From positions 62,001 to 126,000 of the forward strand of contig JASJAN010000021.1 in the NCBI GenBank assembly GCA_030066985.1: DNA of 64,000 nucleotides. The letters are read 5' to 3'. Below are positions 16,835 to 49,159 of the stretch, piece by piece (the stretch's first letter is position 1; every line of letters begins with the position of its first letter). The notes under the pieces are model-generated. The model was not told the origin of the DNA, searched no databases, and saw nothing but the letters and a program-made list of their open reading frames with translations. Both the position numbers and the translations under genes were made by a program. The stretch is from Desulfobacterales bacterium. GTDB taxonomy: Bacteria > Desulfobacterota > Desulfobacteria > Desulfobacterales > JAHEIW01.

Positions 16835-16989
16835 TCCGCCGCAGGCGGATTCAGGTGTCAGGTTTCAGGTGTCAACAAACAGCAAACAGAGGAAATATAT
16901 CTGCTTCTTTTTCTATTTTTTTATCTGTCTTCTGTCTTCTGACATTTGTCTTCTGAGCACTGACACCTGAAACCTGACACCCAAAACCT
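16835..16989. repeat. inverted repeat element, TCAGGTG words (family A, copy 1)
   Basis: Starts with the palindrome TCCGCC-GCA-GGCGGA (16835-16849). The arm 16854-16874 and the arm 16961-16981 are perfect 21-nt inverted copies (GGTGTCAGGTTTCAGGTGTC plus one base). The loop of 86 nt includes tandem TCTGTCTTCTG words near 16925-16955. It lies between the HAD and FKBP-like genes. Confidence 0.85.
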
Positions 16990-25137: not shown

Positions 25138-25276
25138 GTTTCAGTGTTCAGGTGTCAGGTGTCAGGACTACGAATTTGATGAAAATCATCTTTGCATGGC
25201 ATCTTTTTTCTGACACATGAAACCTGACACCTGAACCGCATCTGGCGGAACTTTTGAACATTGACACCTGAAAGCT
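25138..25276. repeat. family A element, copy 2 (with shared core)
   Basis: Inverted arms TTCAGGTGTCAGGTGTCAGG and TGAAACCTGACACCTGAA flank a core (ACTACGAATTTGATGA, then GCATGGCATCTTTTTTCTGA). After the right arm come a degenerate CCGC-ATCTG-GCGG palindrome and AACTTTTGAACATTGACACC. Nearly the same layout and core recur at 44807-44951, making this a genuine dispersed element rather than simple repetition. Confidence 0.85.
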
Positions 25277-35544: not shown

Positions 35545-37209
35545 TTAGGACGCGGTTTTGTCCTTGGATATCCGACGGCGTTCTTCGTCCCGGATTTCGC
35601 GCCGCAGCAGCTTGCCCACTTTGGATTTGGGTAGCATATCGCGAAATTCAATGTATCCGGGGACTTTATACGGCGCTAGACGGTCGCGGCACCATTGCTG
35701 CAGTTCCGCACCCCCAACGCCGCGGGCATCTTCTTTCATCACGACGATGGCCTTGACCCGCTCACCAACTTTCTCATCGGGAACACCGACCACGCAGGCA
35801 CCAATGACCGTGGGATGGTCCTGCAGCACCGCTTCAACCTCCGAGGCCGATATGCGGAAAGCCTTGTGTTTGATAATATCGGCTGAACGCTCCACATATA
35901 TGATTTCGCCATCCTCATCCTGGCGCACATAATCGCCCATGCGGTAGTAGATTTTGTTGTTGAGTTCGATATAGGCCTGCCGGGTTTCTTCCGGTTTGTT
36001 CCAGTATTCCTTGAGGGTATAGGGGGATGTGACCAGCAGCTCGCCGATTTCTCCGATTGCAACCGGATCAAGTGTATCGGGATCAACCACAATGCATTCC
36101 CTGCTTTTCAGCGGAAGCCCCAGTGTCGTGGGCTTGGGGTCTTCATTAATCCGGCTGTAAGTTACGTGGCCGGCTTCGGTGGAGCCATAAACCTGATAAA
36201 TGGGAATGCCCAGATGCTCCTGCCAGCGGTTAAACACTTCAATCGGCAACACATCGCCACCGCAATAACAGTAACGCAAAGTGCTGAGGTCATATTTTTC
36301 CAGACGATCGTTTTCTAGGATCATGCGGTACAGGGCTGGTACCCCCAGAAACCAGCGTACCCGGTTGCGCTGGATGGTTTCAAGAATGGCATCAACCTGG
36401 GGCATCGGCATCAATACAGCGGTATTGCCCTTGTTAAGCCCCACCGCTATAAATAAACCCAAGGCCATAATGTGAAACAGCGGGTTAATGGCGATATACA
36501 CATCTTCGCCTTCTTTGAGATGGCCGGCAGCCACGTCATCGGTGATATCATTCACATAGGAGACCATACCAATGTGATTGCCGGGAACCCCCTTTGGAAA
36601 GCCGGTCGTACCACCGGTATATAATATATATGCCAGGTCCTTCCAGGGATCGATCTCAATTTGTGATGACTTTGGTGAGTGAGTGAGCAATTTCTTAAAT
36701 TCGAATACGCCCTCTGTCCGCTCGACTTTGCCATTGGGTATTTTGTCAAAAAGAAAGCCCAGATACCGTTTCCAAAAAGGCAAAAGGTCCACCAGGTTGG
36801 TGACAATAATGCGTTTGAGCCCGGATTCAGCAAAAACATCGCTGGCATAACAAAAATTAGTGTCCTGGCAGATGATGGTTTCGGCCCCGGAGTCCTTAAT
36901 CATATAATCAAGTTCATGGGATGTATAAATGGGGGACACGGGCACAAGCACAGCCCCCATTTTTTGAATCCCTAAAAAGGCGATGACCCATTGAATGCAA
37001 TTGGGAATGTAGATCATCACCCGGTCGCCTTTTTTAACGCCTAAATCCTGCAAAGCGCCGGCAAAGCGTTCACTGAGGTCCCTAATTCTGGAAAATGAAA
37101 ACTGCTGTCCCAGATAAATAACAGCAGTGTTATCTGGATAGCGCTCACTCATCTGATCAAAGCGTGTAAAGGTTAATTCTTTCTCTAAATTTGTTGTCGT
37201 CTGACTCAT
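35545..37209 (-). CDS. long/medium-chain acyl-CoA synthetase (AMP-binding)
   Basis: Activates a carboxylic acid to its CoA thioester through an acyl adenylate. A 554-residue ANL enzyme: P-loop-like YILYTGGTTGFPKGVPGN, A5 motif YQVYGSTEAGHV, A7/A8 RMGDYVRQDEDGEIIYVERSADIIKHKAFRI region and the catalytic lysine in LPKSKVGKLLRREI. It is the last gene of the liv operon, 108 nt after livF across a 17-bp inverted repeat, suggesting that the acid imported by the ABC system is activated here. GGAG lies 12 nt before the ATG at 37209. Confidence 0.93.
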   Translation of the reverse strand: MSQTTTNLEKELTFTRFDQMSERYPDNTAVIYLGQQFSFSRIRDLSERFAGALQDLGVKKGDRVMIYIPNCIQWVIAFLGIQKMGAVLVPVSPIYTSHELDYMIKDSGAETIICQDTNFCYASDVFAESGLKRIIVTNLVDLLPFWKRYLGFLFDKIPNGKVERTEGVFEFKKLLTHSPKSSQIEIDPWKDLAYILYTGGTTGFPKGVPGNHIGMVSYVNDITDDVAAGHLKEGEDVYIAINPLFHIMALGLFIAVGLNKGNTAVLMPMPQVDAILETIQRNRVRWFLGVPALYRMILENDRLEKYDLSTLRYCYCGGDVLPIEVFNRWQEHLGIPIYQVYGSTEAGHVTYSRINEDPKPTTLGLPLKSRECIVVDPDTLDPVAIGEIGELLVTSPYTLKEYWNKPEETRQAYIELNNKIYYRMGDYVRQDEDGEIIYVERSADIIKHKAFRISASEVEAVLQDHPTVIGACVVGVPDEKVGERVKAIVVMKEDARGVGGAELQQWCRDRLAPYKVPGYIEFRDMLPKSKVGKLLRREIRDEERRRISKDKTAS

Positions 37210-37240
37210 TCTATTAGAGCACTCCAAATTAATTTATGTT

Positions 37241-37317: not shown

Positions 37318-38064
37318 TTAGATGCCAAAATAGGCAGACCTAACATCCGGGTTATTCATCAACTCCTCGCGGGTGCCTTCCAGAACCGCGGCGCCGTTTT
37401 CCAGTATAAAGGCGTAATCCACGATCGGCAAAACAGGTCGCGCATACTGTTCGGTCACAATAATCGAAATGCCCATTTCATCGCGGATTTCTTTGGTGGC
37501 CCGCACCAGGACCGCCTGAATCAAGGGACTCAGTCCCAAAAGCGGTTCATCGAGCAGCAGCAGTTTTGGCTGCGCCATCAACGCTCTGCCGATGGCCAGC
37601 ATTTGTTGTTCGCCCCCGCTTAAAAAACCGCCAATTCGTTTTTGTAATTTTTCAAGTGCCGGAAAGACTCTAAACACATATTCCAACGTCTCTTTGGCTT
37701 GAGCGGGTGTTGCCAGATAGCCTCCAATCCGCAAATTATCCAGGACCGTGCACTCCTTGAAAATTCGGCGTCTTTCCGGGCAAAGTACGATACCTTTTTT
37801 CGCTCTCTTGCTGGGTTTCAGATCCGTGATATTTTCGCCCAAATAGGTAATGTCGCCCAGAACACTGATGCGCTCACCACCGGCCATTTCCTCCTTTTTG
37901 CGGATATCTTCCATGATACCCGACAGGGTGTACATCAGGGTTGATTTACCGGCGCTGTTGGCGCCAAAAACACCCACGATTTGATTGTCGCCACACCGAA
38001 TGCTGACATTGTTGAGGGCCAGCATGTTTTCGTAAAACACCATCAGCCGATTCGCCTCAAGCAT
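37318..38064 (-). CDS. livF: branched-chain-type ABC transporter ATP-binding protein LivF
   Basis: One of the two ATPases driving the LivKHMGF importer, 248 residues. Walker A is GANSAGKST (typical GxNGAGKTT with a conservative change), ABC signature LSGGEQQMLAIGRAL, Walker B LLLLDEPLLGLSP and H-loop region IIVTEQYA. Start choice: ATG at 38064 with GAGGAGG upstream, overlapping livG by 8 nt. Compared with LivF it has a short insert around MEDIRKKEEMAGGERIS. Confidence 0.93.
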   Translation of the reverse strand: MLEANRLMVFYENMLALNNVSIRCGDNQIVGVFGANSAGKSTLMYTLSGIMEDIRKKEEMAGGERISVLGDITYLGENITDLKPSKRAKKGIVLCPERRRIFKECTVLDNLRIGGYLATPAQAKETLEYVFRVFPALEKLQKRIGGFLSGGEQQMLAIGRALMAQPKLLLLDEPLLGLSPLIQAVLVRATKEIRDEMGISIIVTEQYARPVLPIVDYAFILENGAAVLEGTREELMNNPDVRSAYFGI

Positions 38065-38851
38065 GCGCCATGACCTCCTCAACCTCCTCGGATCCAAAAT
38101 AAGCCTCTTTTACTTTTTCGTCTGCCATGACTTCCTCAGCTGTGCCTTCGATGAGCTTTTCACCAAAATTGAGCACCATAATCCGATTGGCCACCTGAAA
38201 CAGCTCTCTGAGCCGGTGTTCGATCATAATCAGGGTGATGCCTTCCATCTGCAAACGCTCCACCAATGGCACCATGCTGGCAATCTCACTCATACTCAGC
38301 CCTGAGAAAACCTCATCGCAGATGATCACTTCCGGATTCAAGGCTAGGCAGCGGGCCAGCTCCAGACGCTTAAGATAGCCGGTCGGTAAATTGGAGGCCT
38401 TTTTGTAAGGCACAAAAGATTCGCGCTCAAAGCCCAATTCTTCCAGAATGTCGATGCTGACCGTGTTTCGGTCCCCGAGCTTGCCGCCGCCCCTCCAACC
38501 ACCGGTGCGTTTAGCCCGCGGAGAAAATAGCGGAATCACCAAGTTCTTATAGGCCGGCAGGCTGTAATACGGGCGCATGATCTGAAATGTGCGGGTGATG
38601 CCCATATCAGCTATTTTATGGGGTGGTTTGCCGGATATTTTTTTTCCCCGGTAAAGAACTTCACCGGCAGTCAGTTCAATAAAACCGGTAATGCAATTCA
38701 CCAGGGTGGTCTTGCCGGATCCATTGGGGCCGATAATCCCTAAAATTTCGCCTTCGTGCAGATCGAAACTGACCTCATTGAGCGCAAAAATACCGCCGAA
38801 GGATTTGGTCACCTCACCGATCTGCAGCAATGGTGTTGTTGATGGGTTCAT
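38057..38851 (-). CDS. livG: branched-chain-type ABC transporter ATP-binding protein LivG
   Basis: Partner ATPase of LivF, 264 residues. Walker A GPNGSGKTTLVN, GITRTFQIMRPY Q-loop region, signature LPTGYLKRLELARCLAL (the LivG variant without canonical LSGGQ) and Walker B VIICDEVFSGLS, with H-loop MIEHRLREL. A long basic insert PRAKRTGGWRGGGKL lies near residue 115. It overlaps livM by 4 nt (ATGA) and livF by 8 nt. Confidence 0.93.
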   Translation of the reverse strand: MNPSTTPLLQIGEVTKSFGGIFALNEVSFDLHEGEILGIIGPNGSGKTTLVNCITGFIELTAGEVLYRGKKISGKPPHKIADMGITRTFQIMRPYYSLPAYKNLVIPLFSPRAKRTGGWRGGGKLGDRNTVSIDILEELGFERESFVPYKKASNLPTGYLKRLELARCLALNPEVIICDEVFSGLSMSEIASMVPLVERLQMEGITLIMIEHRLRELFQVANRIMVLNFGEKLIEGTAEEVMADEKVKEAYFGSEEVEEVMAHA

Positions 38852-39867
38852 ACTTTAATCCACTTTTCGAATTGATGATATTTGCGCTGGCCATACACCA
38901 TAATGCCTTCGCTGCGAAAAATAATGAAGGCCAGCAGAATCAGGGCATAAAATACGATACGCAGGGTCCCAAACGCTCGCAATAGCTCTGAAATCGGCAC
39001 CAGAATGAAGGCGCCCAGAACCGGGCCCACCAGGGTCCCGGAGCCACCGATGACCGTGGCGGCAATCGGCAAAATGGAAAAATCCAGCGCTAGCGTCGAC
39101 AGGCCGGCCCACATATACAGATGAACCAGATAAGCGCCCGCCAGACATCCGATCCCGGAGGCAATAAATACCGCTATGGTCTTGTAACGGGTGACACTCA
39201 TTCCCGACGCCCGAACCGACTGATCATTGTCTTTAACCGCCCTGAACACTAAGCCGATATCCTGGTTGACCAATCTTCGGGTGCCGAACAGCAATACCAG
39301 CACCATCACGATAATAAAATATTGCTCCATCCAACGGTTCGTAAAACTTTCGATGCCCACAATCCCATCGGTTCCGCCCAGGACATCCAGCGCTTCGATA
39401 ACCCGCGCTAACAGCAACGGATACATCAGGGTGACAATGGCAAAATAAACCCCCCGCAGAGGAAGACATGGTAGCAAAAGAACGGTGCAGATAACTGCCC
39501 CCAGCACAGTGGCAATCGGAATGGTGAAAATGGGCGGCAATCCAAAAGACGTGTTGAGAATGGCGGCAATATAGCTGCCCGTTCCGATAAAAAACGCGCC
39601 ACCGAGTGAGACCAGACCCACGTAATGTGCCAGAAAATCAAAACTCAACGCCAGCAAGGCATAGATGCAGACGATGGATATGACCCGTTGCCAATACATG
39701 GAGGGCATCACCAGCGGCAAAATCAACAGGCCGCCAATCAGCGCGACCCGGGGTAGAAACAGATATGACAGCTCCCGCCAGGACATCAAAGCATAGATGC
39801 CTTCGGATCGAACCTTGATTCCCCTGTCCAAGCGTTCCTTACGGCGCTGCTCCTTTGATGCATTCAT
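38848..39867 (-). CDS. livM: branched-chain-type ABC transporter permease LivM
   Basis: Inner-membrane permease, 339 residues, about ten hydrophobic segments. Family features: VGLVSLGGAFFIGTGSYIAA, LRGVYFAIVTLMYPLL, GGTDGIVGI and the C-terminal VIGGSGTLVGPVLGAFILVPISELL. The cytoplasmic N-terminus is basic (KEQRRKERLDRGIKVR). The frame is open from 40062, but the ATG at 39867 overlaps the livH stop by 4 nt and gives the family length. Confidence 0.92.
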   Translation of the reverse strand: MNASKEQRRKERLDRGIKVRSEGIYALMSWRELSYLFLPRVALIGGLLILPLVMPSMYWQRVISIVCIYALLALSFDFLAHYVGLVSLGGAFFIGTGSYIAAILNTSFGLPPIFTIPIATVLGAVICTVLLLPCLPLRGVYFAIVTLMYPLLLARVIEALDVLGGTDGIVGIESFTNRWMEQYFIIVMVLVLLFGTRRLVNQDIGLVFRAVKDNDQSVRASGMSVTRYKTIAVFIASGIGCLAGAYLVHLYMWAGLSTLALDFSILPIAATVIGGSGTLVGPVLGAFILVPISELLRAFGTLRIVFYALILLAFIIFRSEGIMVYGQRKYHQFEKWIKV

Positions 39868-40730
39868 ACGCGCTCTTCCAGCTCTTTCTGAAGTCCAAAC
39901 AACCCGGAGGGTCTTAAAATCAGGGTGATGATGATCGCCAGCAAGGCAACCACCATCTGATAATGGGCCCCCAGGTAAACAACCGTTAAAATTTGGGCAA
40001 AACCGATGATAAAAGCCGCCAGCACCGCTCCAATCCAGCTGCCTAAGCCGCCGACAATGCAAACTGCAATAGCTAAAATAAGAACGTTATAGCCCGCTTC
40101 GACAACAATATTTCCCAGCGGAAGCAGCACAACCGCCCCCAGGGCAGCCAGCATGGAGCCGAATCCCATGGCGGCCAGCGCCATCACATCAGAGTCGATA
40201 CCCAACATCATGGCCGCCCGCTCGTCCTGGGCCATTCCGCGCAGGGCCAGACCGACGCGAGTATAATGGGTAAACAACCACAGTACCGCAACCACCGCTG
40301 CGCCGATGCCCACAACCAGCAACCGTTGGTAATCCACCGATACGCCAAAAATTTCGGTGCTGCCTTCGATAAAGGCCGGCAGGGTGTAAGTCAGGCCCCT
40401 AAATCCGCCCCAGCGCAGTCCCTCTAAAATGGCCAGCCCAATGGCATAGGTCGCCATAATTTCCGATATTTCCATCCCCCGGATCCGGATCAGCACGAAC
40501 TGGTAGATCAGGGCACCGATAATACCCGTGCTCAGCATGGTCAGCAGGATACTGACCAGATAATTCAACTTGAGCGTGTTGATAAACGTCCAGGTAATGA
40601 AACCGCTGGTCACGTACAGGGCGCCGTGGGCAAAATTGGGTAAGCGGCTGACGCCGTACACCATTGCAAATCCCAGGGCAAATAGCGCCAGCGAGACGCT
40701 GTTTATCGTTCCGTAAATTACAATTTCCAT
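39864..40730 (-). CDS. livH: branched-chain-type ABC transporter permease LivH
   Basis: Inner-membrane permease pairing with LivM, 288 residues. Family features: GTINSVSLALFALGFAMVYGVSRLPNFAHGA region at the N-terminus, LALRGMAQDERAAMMLGID (the conserved R-A-x-AQD-x-xAA loop that contacts the ATPase) and VGGLGSWIGAVLAAFIIG. The ATG at 40730 was chosen over the longer frame starting at 40781. A hairpin lies in the 168-nt gap between livK and this gene. Confidence 0.92.
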   Translation of the reverse strand: MEIVIYGTINSVSLALFALGFAMVYGVSRLPNFAHGALYVTSGFITWTFINTLKLNYLVSILLTMLSTGIIGALIYQFVLIRIRGMEISEIMATYAIGLAILEGLRWGGFRGLTYTLPAFIEGSTEIFGVSVDYQRLLVVGIGAAVVAVLWLFTHYTRVGLALRGMAQDERAAMMLGIDSDVMALAAMGFGSMLAALGAVVLLPLGNIVVEAGYNVLILAIAVCIVGGLGSWIGAVLAAFIIGFAQILTVVYLGAHYQMVVALLAIIITLILRPSGLFGLQKELEERV

Positions 40731-40763
40731 GATTTTAACAGGAAAAAACCAGGCGTGAATTGG

Positions 40764-40795
40764 ATTTAAGGCGCCACACAAGCAGCGCCTTAAAT
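40764..40795 (-). promoter_or_regulatory. intercistronic hairpin between livK and livH
   Basis: ATTTAAGGCGC (40764-40774) pairs perfectly with GCGCCTTAAAT (40785-40795) around a 10-nt loop. There is no U-tract on the minus strand, so it is more likely an mRNA-stability stem protecting the abundant livK message than a terminator. Confidence 0.6.
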
Positions 40796-40898: not shown

Positions 40899-42173
40899 TT
40901 ATTTTTTCATCCAGGGCGGCAGTTGAATGGAACCCTTGGCAATACTTTTGGGATACACTACAACCCGTTTGCCGTCCTGCCATTGCAGAATACTGCCCAC
41001 CGCACCGGTTTCAGGATCTTTGGCCGGAATGACCTGGTGACTTTTGGGATCGAATTTCAAGCGCCCGTAAACGCCCATCACATCGGTTTTTTCCAGCTCG
41101 GTCACAATCTTGTCCGAATCGAGACTGCCGGCGCGCTCGATGGCATCCCGCAATACATAGATGGCCATATAGCTGCTGGAACCGCCTAATCCCTCGGGCG
41201 CAACGCCCCATCGTTTTTCGTAGGCGTTGTAGAACTTCATGGTCCAGGGCGTAGCATCGGAAGGCGCGTTGCCGGCATTGACGACGTTACAGAGGGTATA
41301 TTCGCCTTTGCCATCAGTGGCTTTCCAGAAACCGGGCTGCTCGGCAGCTGCCAGGGTCGAGCCGAACGGCAGGGCCGGAATTTTCATTTCATACCATTGC
41401 TTGAGCAAAATGGCGCTTTCGGGCATATCCATCCAGATATTGATGATTTCCGTTTTGCTGTTTTTGGCCTTGAGCAATCCCATGGAAAAGTCAGTTGCAC
41501 CGGTGGGGTAAATTTCCACACCGGTGACATTCCAGCCTTTTTTAGTGGCAACGGCATTCATGACTTTGGCCGCACCGCGCGCATGGGAGACATCCTGCGC
41601 GATGATAAAAAGGTTGTTGAAGCCGTGTTTTTCCTTCAGCTCGGTAAAGTTGGCAAACATCTCGCCCACCAAATTCTTGGCCTCACCGTGGATTCGGAAA
41701 CAATACTTGTATTTGTCATAGTTTTCGGCCACCATTGCGTGGTATTTGGGCGTTAAAACACCGGTGGTCAGGATCGACACCTTTTTATATTTGCTTAAAA
41801 GCGGCATCGCGGCCAGCGCGGCTTCGGAACGAACCGGTCCGCCGACTATAAAATCAGCTTTTTTATCCAGGATCAGCTTTTCAACCGCCAGCAGGGCCTC
41901 GCTGACCGGCACACCCGGTTCCAAATCGCGGGTATCAATCACCTCCAGTTTGAGCGGTCGTTTCTTGCCGCCCACATTGACACCGCCGGCGGCGTTGATT
42001 TCCTCAATCGCCAGGGTAAAGGCTCTCTCAGGACCCCATCCATATAGGAAGGCCGTTGAAAGCGGCGCACCAACAATAATGGGCTTTTCGGCCGCCAGGG
42101 CCGCGCTTCCCGGCAGGATTAGAAAAATTCCCAATAATAAGATCATGAGCATTTTCATATTCTTAACGATCAT
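40899..42173 (-). CDS. livK: branched-chain-type ABC transporter substrate-binding protein
   Basis: Periplasmic ligand receptor of the importer, 424 residues, type I periplasmic-binding fold. The signal peptide spans residues 1-27 (MLMILLLGIFLILPGSAALAAE). Mature start PIIVGAPLSTAFLYGWGPER, FIVGGPVRSEAALAAMPLL and DVMGVYGRLKFDPKSHQV are family segments. Clear GGAGG ribosome site before the ATG at 42173. The CoA ligase in the operon points to a carboxylate ligand (fatty, aromatic or branched acid) rather than an amino acid; this is inference. Confidence 0.92.
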   Translation of the reverse strand: MIVKNMKMLMILLLGIFLILPGSAALAAEKPIIVGAPLSTAFLYGWGPERAFTLAIEEINAAGGVNVGGKKRPLKLEVIDTRDLEPGVPVSEALLAVEKLILDKKADFIVGGPVRSEAALAAMPLLSKYKKVSILTTGVLTPKYHAMVAENYDKYKYCFRIHGEAKNLVGEMFANFTELKEKHGFNNLFIIAQDVSHARGAAKVMNAVATKKGWNVTGVEIYPTGATDFSMGLLKAKNSKTEIINIWMDMPESAILLKQWYEMKIPALPFGSTLAAAEQPGFWKATDGKGEYTLCNVVNAGNAPSDATPWTMKFYNAYEKRWGVAPEGLGGSSSYMAIYVLRDAIERAGSLDSDKIVTELEKTDVMGVYGRLKFDPKSHQVIPAKDPETGAVGSILQWQDGKRVVVYPKSIAKGSIQLPPWMKK

Positions 42174-42370
42174 GGTAAACCCTCCTTTTCCAGAATGAAA
42201 ACGGGTTATGGGTTGGCAGATCACAGCAACCTAAAGCAATTGCGACCGCGATCCTTGATTTTATTGAACTGCGGGCTCGATCACGCAGCTTAGATCATGC
42301 TGCGCGGTAAAATTGATCGATGGTTGATGTTCTATCGGGTGGGTTTTTGAATGTCAAGCCATTAATATAA

Positions 42371-42642: not shown

Positions 42643-43392
42643 ATGGGGCAACTGAGAGAATTTCCGTTAAGATATCGACTGTTTCTAAAAACCTACCCCT
42701 GGCGGTGCAATGACCCGGTACCCTGGGCACCTTTGCAAAAACCGCTCAAGGATTGTCGCCTGGCTGTGGTATCCAGTTCGGGCTTTATCACGAATGGCCA
42801 AGCGCCTTTTGACGAATCGATTCGAGGGGGAGATTACAGTTTTCGTAAAATTCCTTCGGATATGAACGCCAACGAGTTAATCGACACCCATCGCAGCAAA
42901 ATCTTTGACCATTCTGGATTACGGCAAGACCCAAACCTGGCCTTTCCCATTCGGCGCATGCAGGAATTGGTAATTAAGGGTCGCATCGGTTCATTGACGA
43001 GCCGATATTTATCGTTTATGGGTTCTATTACCGCGCCCGGACGGCTGGTCAAAAAAACCCTTCCGGCAGTCGTCAAACTGTTCAAAGACGATGGCGTGGA
43101 TGTCGCGCTGTTGATTCCGGTCTGACCTATTTGCAACCAGACCGTGGGTCTGGTGGCCGGGGCACTGGAGCGTCAGGGTATCTCTACGGTGACCATTCAA
43201 TTGTTGCGCCATGTGGCTGAAAAAGTGCTTCCACCGCGTGCTCTGTGTGTCCCCTTTCGTCATGGTTACCCGCTGGATGCGCCTGATGAACCGGCAAAGC
43301 AGCATGCAGTTATCGAAGCCGCCTTAAAAATGCTCGAAGACCCGCACCTGAAGCCGCCGGCCATCCAGGACTATGTGCCGCAATTAGACTAA
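42643..43392 (+). CDS. PrdB/GrdB-like selenoprotein (glycine/sarcosine/betaine/proline reductase selenoprotein B family)
   Basis: A 249-residue reductase-type protein with TGA at 43123-43125 read as Sec161. The motif VALLIPV-U-PICNQTVGL matches the U-P-V-C-N-Q-T active site of the GrdB/PrdB family; FDESIRGGDYSFRKIP, NLAFPIRRMQELVIKGRIG and YLSFMGSI are other family boxes. Size fits the 26-kDa PrdB subunit rather than the longer GrdB. A perfect SECIS hairpin follows the UGA. GAGGAAC precedes the ATG. No prdA, grdA or partner thioredoxin is here, so the reductase substrate is open. Divergent from liv. Confidence 0.9.
43136..43154 (+). promoter_or_regulatory. bacterial SECIS hairpin of the PrdB/GrdB-like gene
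   Basis: ACCAGACC (43136-43143) pairs perfectly with GGTCTGGT (43147-43154) around a GTG loop. The loop GU starts 19 nt after the UGA, as expected for SelB recognition. Confidence 0.82.
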
Positions 43393-43437: not shown

Positions 43438-43536
43438 AAGGTTTCAGGTTTCGGGTGTCAGGTGTCAGCCCTTCTGTTCGTCCCTGAAACCTGACACCTG
43501 ACACCAGAACCGCCAGAGGCGGAACTTTAGAGCCTT
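43438..43536. repeat. family A element, copy 3
   Basis: TTTCAGGTTTCGGGTGTCAGG and CCTGAAACCTGACACCTGAC arms flank a short loop (about 15 nt). Then ACCGCC-AGA-GGCGGA (43509-43523) and AACTTTAGAGCC follow, as in copies 2 and 4. It lies 45 nt after the selenoprotein stop and 30 nt before the hydrolase-OsmC ATG. Confidence 0.82.
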
Positions 43537-43566: not shown

Positions 43567-44790
43567 ATGAAATTCAAAAAGATTGAGTTTGAAAACAACG
43601 ATGGCCTGATTCTTTCAGCGAGGATCGATTTGCCGGTTGCCGGCAAACCAGCGGCATATGCTTTGTTTGCGCATTGCTTTACCTGTTCAAAAAATATCAA
43701 GGCCATTGCCCACATTACCCGGGCGCTGACGCGTGAAGGCATCGCGGTAATGCGATTTGATTTCACAGGTCTTGGTGAAAGCGAAGGTGACTTTGCGGAC
43801 ACCAATTTCTCCTCCAATGTTGGTGATTTGATTGTGGCCGCTGATTTTTTGGAATCCAACTATGAAGCGCCGAAAATATTGATCGGGCATTCATTTGGCG
43901 GAGCAGCGGTACTGCAAGCGGCTGCGCACATTTCTTCTGCAACTGCCGTGGTGACCATCGCCGCTCCGTCCGATCCCGGGCATGTGACCCACTCTCTTGG
44001 CAGCGCAACTCAAATCATTCAAAGCCGCGGTAAAGCGGAAGTCAGCTTAGCCGGCAGAACGTTTACGCTTAAAAAGCAGTTTTTGGAAGATCTGCAATTT
44101 GTCAATATGAAAGAAACGATCAAAAAGCTGGACAGGGCGCTGCTGGTGTTGCATTCTCCGGTGGATGATACCGTAGGGATCGACAATGCGGCCCAGATTT
44201 TTCAGACCGCCCGGCACCCTAAAAGTTTTGTTTCCCTCGATAAAGCCGACCACCTGCTAACCAGCCAGGCCGATTCTCTGTATGCCGGTGCGGTCATCGC
44301 GGCCTGGGCAAGTAAATACGTCAGCGATACGCACCCAGATCAACCCGCCGTTGATGACGCCCAGCATCAGGTAACCACCCGAATCGGCAAGACGGCTTAT
44401 GTCACCGACATTATGGCAGCCGGTCACAGCCTGGTCGCCGATGAGCCCCAATCGATGGGCGGAAGCGATTTGGGCCCGACGCCTTACGATCTTTTAATGG
44501 CGGCCCTGGGCACGTGCAAAGCCATGACGTTGCGCATGTATGCCGACCGCAAGCAATGGCCGTTGGAAGATGCGACCTTTCAATTAAACCATAAAAAAAT
44601 TGATGCCGCTGATTGCGAGACCTGCCAGACAAAAGAAGGTCAGGTGGACCAATTTGATTGTGAAATCGAGCTATCCGGAGAACTAGATGATCAGCAAAAA
44701 CAGCGGCTACTTCAAATAGCCGATCGCTGCCCGGTTCACCGTACGTTGCATTCGGAGCTCATCGTTCGGTCGACGCTCAAAGAGGAATAA
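43567..44790 (+). CDS. bifunctional alpha/beta hydrolase-OsmC fusion
   Basis: A 407-residue fusion. Residues 1-255 are an alpha/beta hydrolase: nucleophile in LIGHSFGGAAVLQ, Asp in LHSPVDDTVGI and His in ADHLLTSQ. Residues 270-405 are an OsmC/Ohr-like thiol peroxidase domain with Cys pairs GTCKAMTLRMYA and RCPVHRTLHSEL. This architecture occurs in many bacteria; OsmC members reduce organic hydroperoxides. The hydrolase domain might release a peroxidised acyl ester for the second domain (inference). Family A repeats bracket the gene on both sides. Confidence 0.9.
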   Translation: MKFKKIEFENNDGLILSARIDLPVAGKPAAYALFAHCFTCSKNIKAIAHITRALTREGIAVMRFDFTGLGESEGDFADTNFSSNVGDLIVAADFLESNYEAPKILIGHSFGGAAVLQAAAHISSATAVVTIAAPSDPGHVTHSLGSATQIIQSRGKAEVSLAGRTFTLKKQFLEDLQFVNMKETIKKLDRALLVLHSPVDDTVGIDNAAQIFQTARHPKSFVSLDKADHLLTSQADSLYAGAVIAAWASKYVSDTHPDQPAVDDAQHQVTTRIGKTAYVTDIMAAGHSLVADEPQSMGGSDLGPTPYDLLMAALGTCKAMTLRMYADRKQWPLEDATFQLNHKKIDAADCETCQTKEGQVDQFDCEIELSGELDDQQKQRLLQIADRCPVHRTLHSELIVRSTLKEE

Positions 44791-44806: not shown

Positions 44807-44951
44807 GGTTTCAGTGTTCAGGTGTCAGGACTACGAATTTGATGAGAACCATCAGATTCTGCATGGCGTCTTTTTTCTGACATCCGAAACCTGAAACCTG
44901 AACCGCCTCCGGCGGAACTTTTGAACGCTGACACCTGACACCTGACACCTT
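44807..44951. repeat. family A element, copy 4 (with shared core)
   Basis: Same order as copy 2: TTTCAGTGTTCAGGTGTCAGG, core ACTACGAATTTGATGA and GCATGGCGTCTTTTTTCTGA, right arm GAAACCTGAAACCTGAA, CCGCC-TCC-GGCGG (44903-44915), AACTTTTGAACGCTGACACC. The arm is longer than in copy 2 (three CTGACAC words). It begins 17 nt after the hydrolase-OsmC stop. Confidence 0.85.
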
Positions 44952-47489: not shown

Positions 47490-48347
47490 ATGGATCCGAC
47501 CCAAATTCAAGAACGGATATTCGGAAAAACTCAACAAACGGTGACCCGAACCGGTCTGGGCGGCGAGGGTGTTCTGCGGACCCGCCAACGGCATACCGAG
47601 GCGCATGCTGTCATACAGGCCGCCGTTGATCAGGGCATCACCTATTTTGATTCAGCACGTGTTTACGCGGACAGCGAAATATATTACGGCAGCTTATGGG
47701 GCAAACGCCCCGATATCCGGGCTGCTATTTTTCAGGCCAGCAAATCTGCCAGCCGTGATAAAAAAGGGGCTGAGGCCGATCTGAACCAATCATTGGAGCG
47801 CCTGCAGACAGACTATCTGGATTTGTGGCAAATTCATGATGTCCGCACAGAAGCGGATTTGGCAACGATCTCAGGAGCCGGTGGTGCGCTGGAAGCTTTT
47901 GTTGCAGCCAAGGCTGCCGGTAAGATCCGCGCGATTGGTGTCACCGGACATCACAATCCACACATTCTGACACAGGCGGTTCGACAATGGCCGGTTGACG
48001 CCGTCATGTTACCGGTCAATCCGGTCGAGGACATTCTGGGTGGTTTTCTAACAGAAACCTTGCCGGCAGCCAGAGAAAAAGGTATCGCCGCTATCGGCAT
48101 GAAAGTCTTGGGCGCCTCCCATTTTCTGTTACCCCCGGCTCAGATCACAGCCGAAACGCTGATTCGTTACGCGCTTTCATGCGATATCGATGTCGCCATT
48201 GTGGGCTGCGCAACCCCTGCTGAAGTCAAAACATTGACCGATATGGGCCGCACAGCAGAGCCCTTTATAGAGGCAGAAAAAGAATCTGTTTTAAATGTGT
48301 TTAAACCAATTGCCAGGCAGATCGCTTACTATCGAGGCGTATTATGA
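47490..48347 (+). CDS. aldo/keto reductase
   Basis: A 285-residue AKR: tetrad Asp54, Tyr59, Lys85 and His116 are present in YFDSARVYA, QASKSASR and WQIHDVRT. It is shorter at the C-terminus than the aldo/keto reductase at 633. The next gene overlaps by 4 nt (ATGATG), implying coupled translation. No ribosome site is stronger than the GGTGACTTCGG before the ATG. Confidence 0.88.
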   Translation: MDPTQIQERIFGKTQQTVTRTGLGGEGVLRTRQRHTEAHAVIQAAVDQGITYFDSARVYADSEIYYGSLWGKRPDIRAAIFQASKSASRDKKGAEADLNQSLERLQTDYLDLWQIHDVRTEADLATISGAGGALEAFVAAKAAGKIRAIGVTGHHNPHILTQAVRQWPVDAVMLPVNPVEDILGGFLTETLPAAREKGIAAIGMKVLGASHFLLPPAQITAETLIRYALSCDIDVAIVGCATPAEVKTLTDMGRTAEPFIEAEKESVLNVFKPIARQIAYYRGVL

Positions 48348-49159
48348 TGATTGATATAAGCAAAATAGATTATCCGCTGTTGGACCAACCGGCGGTGTCG
48401 AATAGGTTGTTTCACCCGCGCCCCGAATTCGGGCAGCCCGATTCAGCAAATGACGATACCCTCATGATGATACCGGTGGAAGCTGACATTTCTATAGGCG
48501 CTCGATTTCACCTGACCGAAAAATCCGGTGCAACCCTTTTGTTTTTTCACGGCAACGGAGAAATTGCGGCCGATTACGATGATTTTGGTCGGATCGTAAA
48601 TCAGCTGGGATTCAACCTTCTAGCTGTTGACTACCGTGGCTACGGCCGCTCGAGCGGACGACCCACCGTAACCGCCATGATGCGTGATTGTCATGTGATT
48701 TTCGATTTTGTCTGCCAATGGCGCGCCCAAGAGCAATACAGTGGTCCTATCGTTTTGATGGGCCGATCGCTGGGCAGTGCTTCCGTACTCGAACTGGCAT
48801 CTCATTACCCAGCCCGCGTTGATGGGTTAATTGTCGAAAGCGGCTTTGCCCATTCTGCCCCTCTGCTACAGCTTTTAGGCATCAATACGACCGACATCGG
48901 CTTCGAGGAGACGCTCGGATTTCAAAATACTGAAAAAATAGCTGATTTTCATAAACCCACTTTAATTATTCATGCTGAAAAAGATCACATCATCCCCTTT
49001 TCCGACGGGATTTTGCTTTTTGAAACCTGTTCGGCTGCTGATAAGACGCTGCTTAAAATTCCCCACGCCAACCATAACGACATCTTCATACATGGAATTC
49101 AGGATTACCTTGAGGCGATGGTAAAATTGCGCCAACGTCTAACCACCTCTGCAGCTTGA
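48344..49159 (+). CDS. alpha/beta hydrolase
   Basis: A 271-residue serine hydrolase: oxyanion region LLFFHGNGEIAADYD, nucleophile in LMGRSLGSASVLELA (G-x-S-x-G), Asp in IIHAEKDHIIPFSD and His in PHANHNDIF. This pattern matches the BEM46/ABHD13-like group. No signal peptide, so cytoplasmic. It is translationally coupled to the aldo/keto reductase; substrate is unknown. A 301-nt gap without visible gene or repeat follows. Confidence 0.87.
   Translation: MMIDISKIDYPLLDQPAVSNRLFHPRPEFGQPDSANDDTLMMIPVEADISIGARFHLTEKSGATLLFFHGNGEIAADYDDFGRIVNQLGFNLLAVDYRGYGRSSGRPTVTAMMRDCHVIFDFVCQWRAQEQYSGPIVLMGRSLGSASVLELASHYPARVDGLIVESGFAHSAPLLQLLGINTTDIGFEETLGFQNTEKIADFHKPTLIIHAEKDHIIPFSDGILLFETCSAADKTLLKIPHANHNDIFIHGIQDYLEAMVKLRQRLTTSAA

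Follow-up and report, generated by a model that had tools for sequence, protein, structure and literature searches.

The window, as we call the whole stretch of 64,000 nucleotides of Desulfobacterales DNA that was analysed, encodes a selenoprotein that is probably a stand-alone selenocysteine (Sec) oxidoreductase of the GrdB/PrdB superfamily, that is, a soluble, thiol-recycled enzyme acting on a non-amine substrate. The gene, its recoding signals and its neighbours are listed in Table 1.

Table 1 Features of the selenoprotein locus, in window coordinates.
Feature	Position	Strand	Support
PrdB/GrdB-like selenoprotein, 249 aa, Sec at residue 161	42643..43392	+	TIGR04483 129 bits, PF07355 33.7 bits
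In-frame UGA read as Sec, U161-P-I-C164	43123..43125	+	UGA at the site in 146/152 extracted relatives
Bacterial SECIS-like hairpin, 8-bp stem, GUG loop, shortly 3' of the UGA	43136..43154	+	Fold; covariation in 128 sequences
Periplasmic binding protein (livK-like), divergent ABC uptake operon	40899..42224	-	Pfam; orthologue in 4/7 loci, remnant in a fifth
liv-type ABC transporter, two permeases and two ATPases	37318..40781	-	Pfam
AMP-binding acyl-CoA ligase, last gene of the divergent operon	35545..37227	-	Pfam, NCBIfam
Alpha/beta-hydrolase fused to an OsmC domain	43567..44790	+	Pfam; hydrolase downstream in 7/7 orthologous loci
Second alpha/beta-hydrolase (Hydrolase_4)	48344..49159	+	Nearby in 6/7 orthologous loci

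The reading frame opens with the ATG at 42643, passes through an in-frame TGA at 43123-43125 and closes with the TAA at 43390-43392; translation of the TGA as Sec yields a 249-residue product with the motif U161-P-I-C-N-Q-T, in agreement with a preliminary description of this DNA. UGA was found at the Sec site in all of the best 80 relatives from the GTDB genome set, and the frame is conserved as well 3' of the UGA as 5' of it, the window protein being identical to one relative (L172) at 69 of 87 residues after the site and at 126 of 164 before it. The genome itself carries tRNA-Sec (selC, 75 bits), SelB (376 bits), SelA (614 bits) and SelD, the gene for the latter being itself interrupted by a UGA. 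The Sec machinery, whose absence the preliminary description had named as a finding that would speak against it, is thus complete (selA, selB, selC and selD). Selenocysteine at residue 161 is well supported at the sequence level by SECIS covariation (see below), conservation of the frame beyond the UGA and the presence of these four genes. UGA-free relatives also exist, in which the alignment places Gly (L026), Cys (L208) or Thr (L209) at the Sec site; Sec has thus been lost or replaced in some members of the family.

The sequence ACCAGACC / GTG / GGTCTGGT at 43136-43154 folds to an 8-bp stem of -18.6 kcal/mol with a z-score of only -1.5, and 18 of 300 synonymous recodings folded equally well, so that the hairpin formed by this single sequence does not go beyond chance. 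Yet, across 128 distinct relatives, all eight pairs were kept in 96 and seven in 31, and pairs variable on both sides, each linking a third to a first codon position, covaried far beyond shuffled controls. Counted from the UGA, pair 14-30 was Watson-Crick in 115 relatives (at most 91 in 2000 shuffles), pair 17-27 likewise in 115 (at most 95 in 2000 shuffles) and pair 18-26 in 105 (at most 84 in 2000 shuffles). Support for the hairpin is thus comparative. An Rfam search at the selenoprotein locus returned no match. The perfect 8-bp SECIS with a GTG loop that had been proposed earlier is confirmed as a stem by folding and is backed by covariation within the family.

Membership in the GrdB/PrdB family, also proposed earlier, was upheld by two profiles: the protein matched Pfam PF07355 (GRDB) above its curated threshold, at 33.7 bits against a cut-off of 22, which places it in the superfamily, and aligned to residues 19-220 of the 238-residue NCBIfam model TIGR04483 (PrdB) at 129.3 bits, against an equivalog cut-off of 300. 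This superfamily is also marked by an in-frame UGA that sits in a UxxC motif ahead of a SECIS, as is the case here. The window protein resembles PrdB in size, in its full-length alignment and in its Sec-containing UxxC and SECIS, but falls short of the PrdB score and comes without a PrdA/pyruvoyl partner, so that D-proline chemistry is not implied. Its likeness to GrdB extends to the C-terminal half only (residues 200-421 of the 431-residue model TIGR01917), where Sec sits in the same place and H83, D89, D96, G127, E176 and R199 are shared; the N-terminal half is missing (249 residues against about 430 in GrdB). Contrary to the preliminary description, the layout of the motif is not identical to that of glycine reductase B. 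Genuine GrdB adjoining GrdE reads STUGTCTRCGA or STUGTGTRCGA, the former being a UxxCxxC with a further Cys at +6, whereas the stand-alone family reads PxUxxC[NH][QR][ST]VG and the window protein PxUPxCNQTVG, with no third Cys. Besides UxxC, residues that are invariant or nearly so in the family include R68, H83, D96, R199 and Q220, and genuine GrdB lacks the D64, R68, P159, V168, P198 and Q220 of the stand-alone family. By its sequence, the window protein belongs to the superfamily without being a glycine reductase B or a proven subunit of proline reductase.

An AlphaFold2 model built with 55 family sequences (pLDDT 95.5, pTM 0.93) predicts a compact alpha/beta domain of Rossmann-like type: a central strand (154-158) leads into U161-P-I-C164, which caps the helix that follows (164-177). 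Foldseek searches of the PDB and of viral models gave nothing below an E-value of 0.001; the best VIA-align matches were of Rossmann type, with middling Z-scores of up to 7.5 that name no fold relative, and no thioredoxin-fold protein was listed in either comparison, all Z-scores lying below 8. A search of solved structures with the window protein sequence (E up to 1) found no relative, and a lone phosphate-loop protein retrieved with the profile at an E-value of 0.4 was dismissed as chance level.

TIGR04483 was matched in 99 of the phylum's 395 genomes; almost all of these matches contain a single in-frame UGA, and some are full-length GrdB. Within the order and the family, 82 of 242 and 6 of 6 genomes, respectively, carried a match to the family profile. 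Selenoproteins listed as "proline reductase PrdB" were likewise recorded in marine surveys of 2005-2008, with 42 in the Sargasso Sea (PMC1088965) and 235 in GOS, where the PrdB entry of Table 2 corresponds to pfam07355 and UxxC (PMC2398784). These open-ocean proteins are akin to the window protein in being pfam07355 UxxC selenoproteins from outside amino-acid-fermenting clostridia; the surveys, as far as their available text goes, differ in giving no gene neighbours or partners and in retaining the proline reductase name, and the window protein represents one sub-branch only (PMC1088965, PMC2398784). It answers to what is said of the marine "PrdB-like" proteins (a short pfam07355 UxxC protein free of partners), a match by description rather than by sequence. 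The stand-alone occurrence, noted in the preliminary description, is by the genome counts and the accessible survey data (PMC1088965, PMC2398784) the rule in the PrdB-like family and not the exception.

A tree of 130 rows, comprising relatives only and no clostridial PrdB, placed the window protein in a seven-member Desulfobacterales clade (100/100), itself nested on a long stem (1.12) within a clade of Poribacteria, Acidobacteriota, Nitrospirota, Latescibacterota, Gemmatimonadota and Chloroflexota (100/100). Horizontal gain by the Desulfobacterales lineage is the simplest reading of this topology. The viral contigs searched held no relative. The same genome has a second, distant PrdB-like selenoprotein gene on contig 76 (4056-4733, minus strand; L001) with the motif U-P-Y-C-C-R-S-V, which groups with orthologues from the family and order in a long-branched clade of its own. 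Another alpha/beta-hydrolase downstream of this copy was rejected as a shared neighbour, as it occurs in the genus only and is not conserved further. Two loci (L230 and L232) encode a fused form with about 170 residues beyond the PrdB-like domain, the tail of L232 matching no Pfam or NCBIfam model, and about 16 further order-level matches have open frames of 407-447 residues. At locus L210 of genome G565, a divergent PrdB-like gene and a weak GrdE-like match (49.8 bits) share one stretch, possibly a diverged two-subunit system.

The next conserved same-strand gene downstream of the selenoprotein gene encodes an alpha/beta-hydrolase in all seven orthologous loci, which come from three genera in two families, three of them from a single genus, and are thus not seven independent events. 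In four loci it carries a fused OsmC domain in which both conserved cysteines are present, and in the remaining three it is a hydrolase only; the OsmC part of the window gene is nearest to NF041052 (OsmC-related (seleno)protein) among NCBIfam models. No such hydrolase followed the gene in the 34 other order-level loci. Gene order was taken from a simple ORF caller and mostly from metagenome-assembled loci. Neighbours differ in other phyla. At least one of two constant orthologous groups of Gfo/Idh/MocA dehydrogenases was found at 30 of 32 Poribacterial loci, and in most of them one such gene stops no more than about 15 bp upstream of the selenoprotein gene while the other lies downstream; loci so flanked, within about 1 kb on either side, include L053, L056-L058, L060 and L064-L066. 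A search of the available literature found no report on selenoproteins in Poribacteria. Acidobacteriota relatives had no evident conserved partner gene, and in most relatives the OsmC-hydrolase is not nearby.

In proline and glycine reductases the amino acid is held on a pyruvoyl group of the partner subunit (a likely one in glycine reductase) and Sec breaks the C-N bond (PMC10298544). That the window protein is a genuine B subunit of a reductase for D-proline (or another amino acid), with a PrdA/GrdE that has diverged or was not assembled, is highly improbable: TIGR04483 (PrdB) is indeed its top NCBIfam model and the genome is a draft (5.07 Mb, 97.8% complete, 81 contigs), but its score is well under the equivalog cut-off, which no match reached among the 395 genomes of the phylum, and its active-site motif is unlike that of genuine GrdB. 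Searches for PF09338, the GrdE/PrdA pyruvoyl subunit family, and for GrdA (PF04723) found neither in this genome nor in two others of the genus, and PF09338 was likewise absent from two orthologue-bearing genomes of another family (these and the two of the genus being G399, G397, G577 and G589) and from 19 of the 20 genomes that represent named relatives from other phyla; as positive controls, the PF09338/GrdA searches gave matches in 7 of 14 genomes searched, including grd-bearing ones. The lack of prdA/grdE-type and grdA genes noted in the preliminary description is thus borne out across the genome and the genus, and the prd or grd partners whose discovery elsewhere in the genome it had named as counterevidence were not found by these searches. 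A pyruvoyl partner unrelated to PF09338 may exist. With the known partners absent, the earlier suggestion that a stand-alone member might act on another substrate is the natural conclusion. FarB, a GrdB relative and candidate B subunit of a fluoroacetate reductase, with a predicted attack of Sec on the C-F bond (PMC10838667), offers by analogy a precedent for non-amine substrates in this superfamily, although it is encoded in an operon with a GrdE-like partner, FarE, of a kind that the window protein lacks (PMC10838667).

A further proposal, following the preliminary description, is that the selenoprotein serves the divergent liv/CoA-ligase operon, for instance by reductively opening an imported compound of carboxylic or amino-acid-like nature. 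The genus and a single genome of the sister genus retain this operon, and AMP-binding ligases lie near both f114 loci. Orthology of the operon is nevertheless confined to four of the seven loci, and a fifth retains a livK remnant. In f114, the ligases reach just 26-27% identity and the single liv-type cassette seen, at L204, about 29-34%; no liv operon was found beside close relatives in other phyla. The liv/CoA-ligase context, whose sharing by relatives had been put forward earlier as a check, was thus rejected as a conserved partner (four of seven loci against seven of seven for the downstream hydrolase), and we regard such a role as improbable. Somewhat better placed, if still rather unlikely, is the reading as a defence protein that uses Sec against peroxides or disulfides, is coupled to OsmC and has no specific metabolic substrate, as the UxxC motif, the OsmC domain with both conserved cysteines in four of seven downstream partners and the wide, patchy spread, which takes in anaerobes as well as lineages presumed to be aerobic (e.g. 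Poribacteria), might indicate. A strict thiol-peroxidase theme is contradicted by the three partners without an OsmC domain; moreover, the Poribacterial partners are dehydrogenases, most relatives have no OsmC-hydrolase nearby, and the predicted fold seems unlike the thioredoxin fold, as far as its middling structural matches show.

We thus favour a stand-alone Sec oxidoreductase. Comparative evidence covers UGA decoding, the absence of known partners, the difference in motif and the conserved neighbours; the substrate class, thiol recycling and cooperation with the hydrolase/OsmC protein are what we infer beyond it. After decoding of the UGA by means of the downstream SECIS, the enzyme, having no pyruvoyl partner, would be unable to form a Schiff base with an amino acid in the manner of proline and glycine reductases, and its selenolate would therefore most likely attack an electrophilic substrate directly. 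Product release would most likely leave a Sec161-Cys164 selenenylsulfide, from which thioredoxin or a low-molecular-weight thiol would regenerate the enzyme. Gene order suggests that the Desulfobacterales enzyme probably acts jointly with the downstream alpha/beta-hydrolase/OsmC protein, the substrate perhaps being an ester, thioester or hydroperoxide that is oxidised or electrophilic in some other way, and that its Poribacterial relatives may work with the two Gfo/Idh/MocA dehydrogenases. Since neighbours differ between phyla, the shared chemistry may be generic. More tentatively, and with a rather low probability, the stand-alone branch may represent a new selenoenzyme activity. It would be a pyruvoyl-independent Sec reductase able to break a carbon-heteroatom bond in a metabolite other than an amino acid; its partner would be an alpha/beta-hydrolase(-OsmC) in sulfate reducers, whereas the sponge-associated Poribacteria would pair it with two sugar-type dehydrogenases.

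That this is a widespread selenoprotein family is already known from the marine surveys, among whose more abundant bacterial selenoprotein families PrdB-like proteins rank, usually labelled proline reductase in the survey text available (PMC1088965, PMC2398784). For the stand-alone branch this label is misleading, given the absence of partner subunits from the genomes and a motif unlike that of glycine reductase B. What is new is that the partners are missing genome-wide while controls respond, that the motif is distinct from that of GrdB, that two gene neighbourhoods are conserved and that the branch is nested among sequences from Acidobacteriota, Nitrospirota and Poribacteria; the hydrolase(-OsmC) and Gfo/Idh/MocA neighbours provide concrete handles on the real substrate. 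The window also contains a 7-base-periodic palindromic intergenic repeat of the CAGGTGTCAGGTTTCAGG type at 16852-16983, 25142-25233, 43438-43507 and 44812-44951 (21 matches with at most 3 mismatches against 0.16 expected), one copy of which lies between the selenoprotein and hydrolase/OsmC genes.
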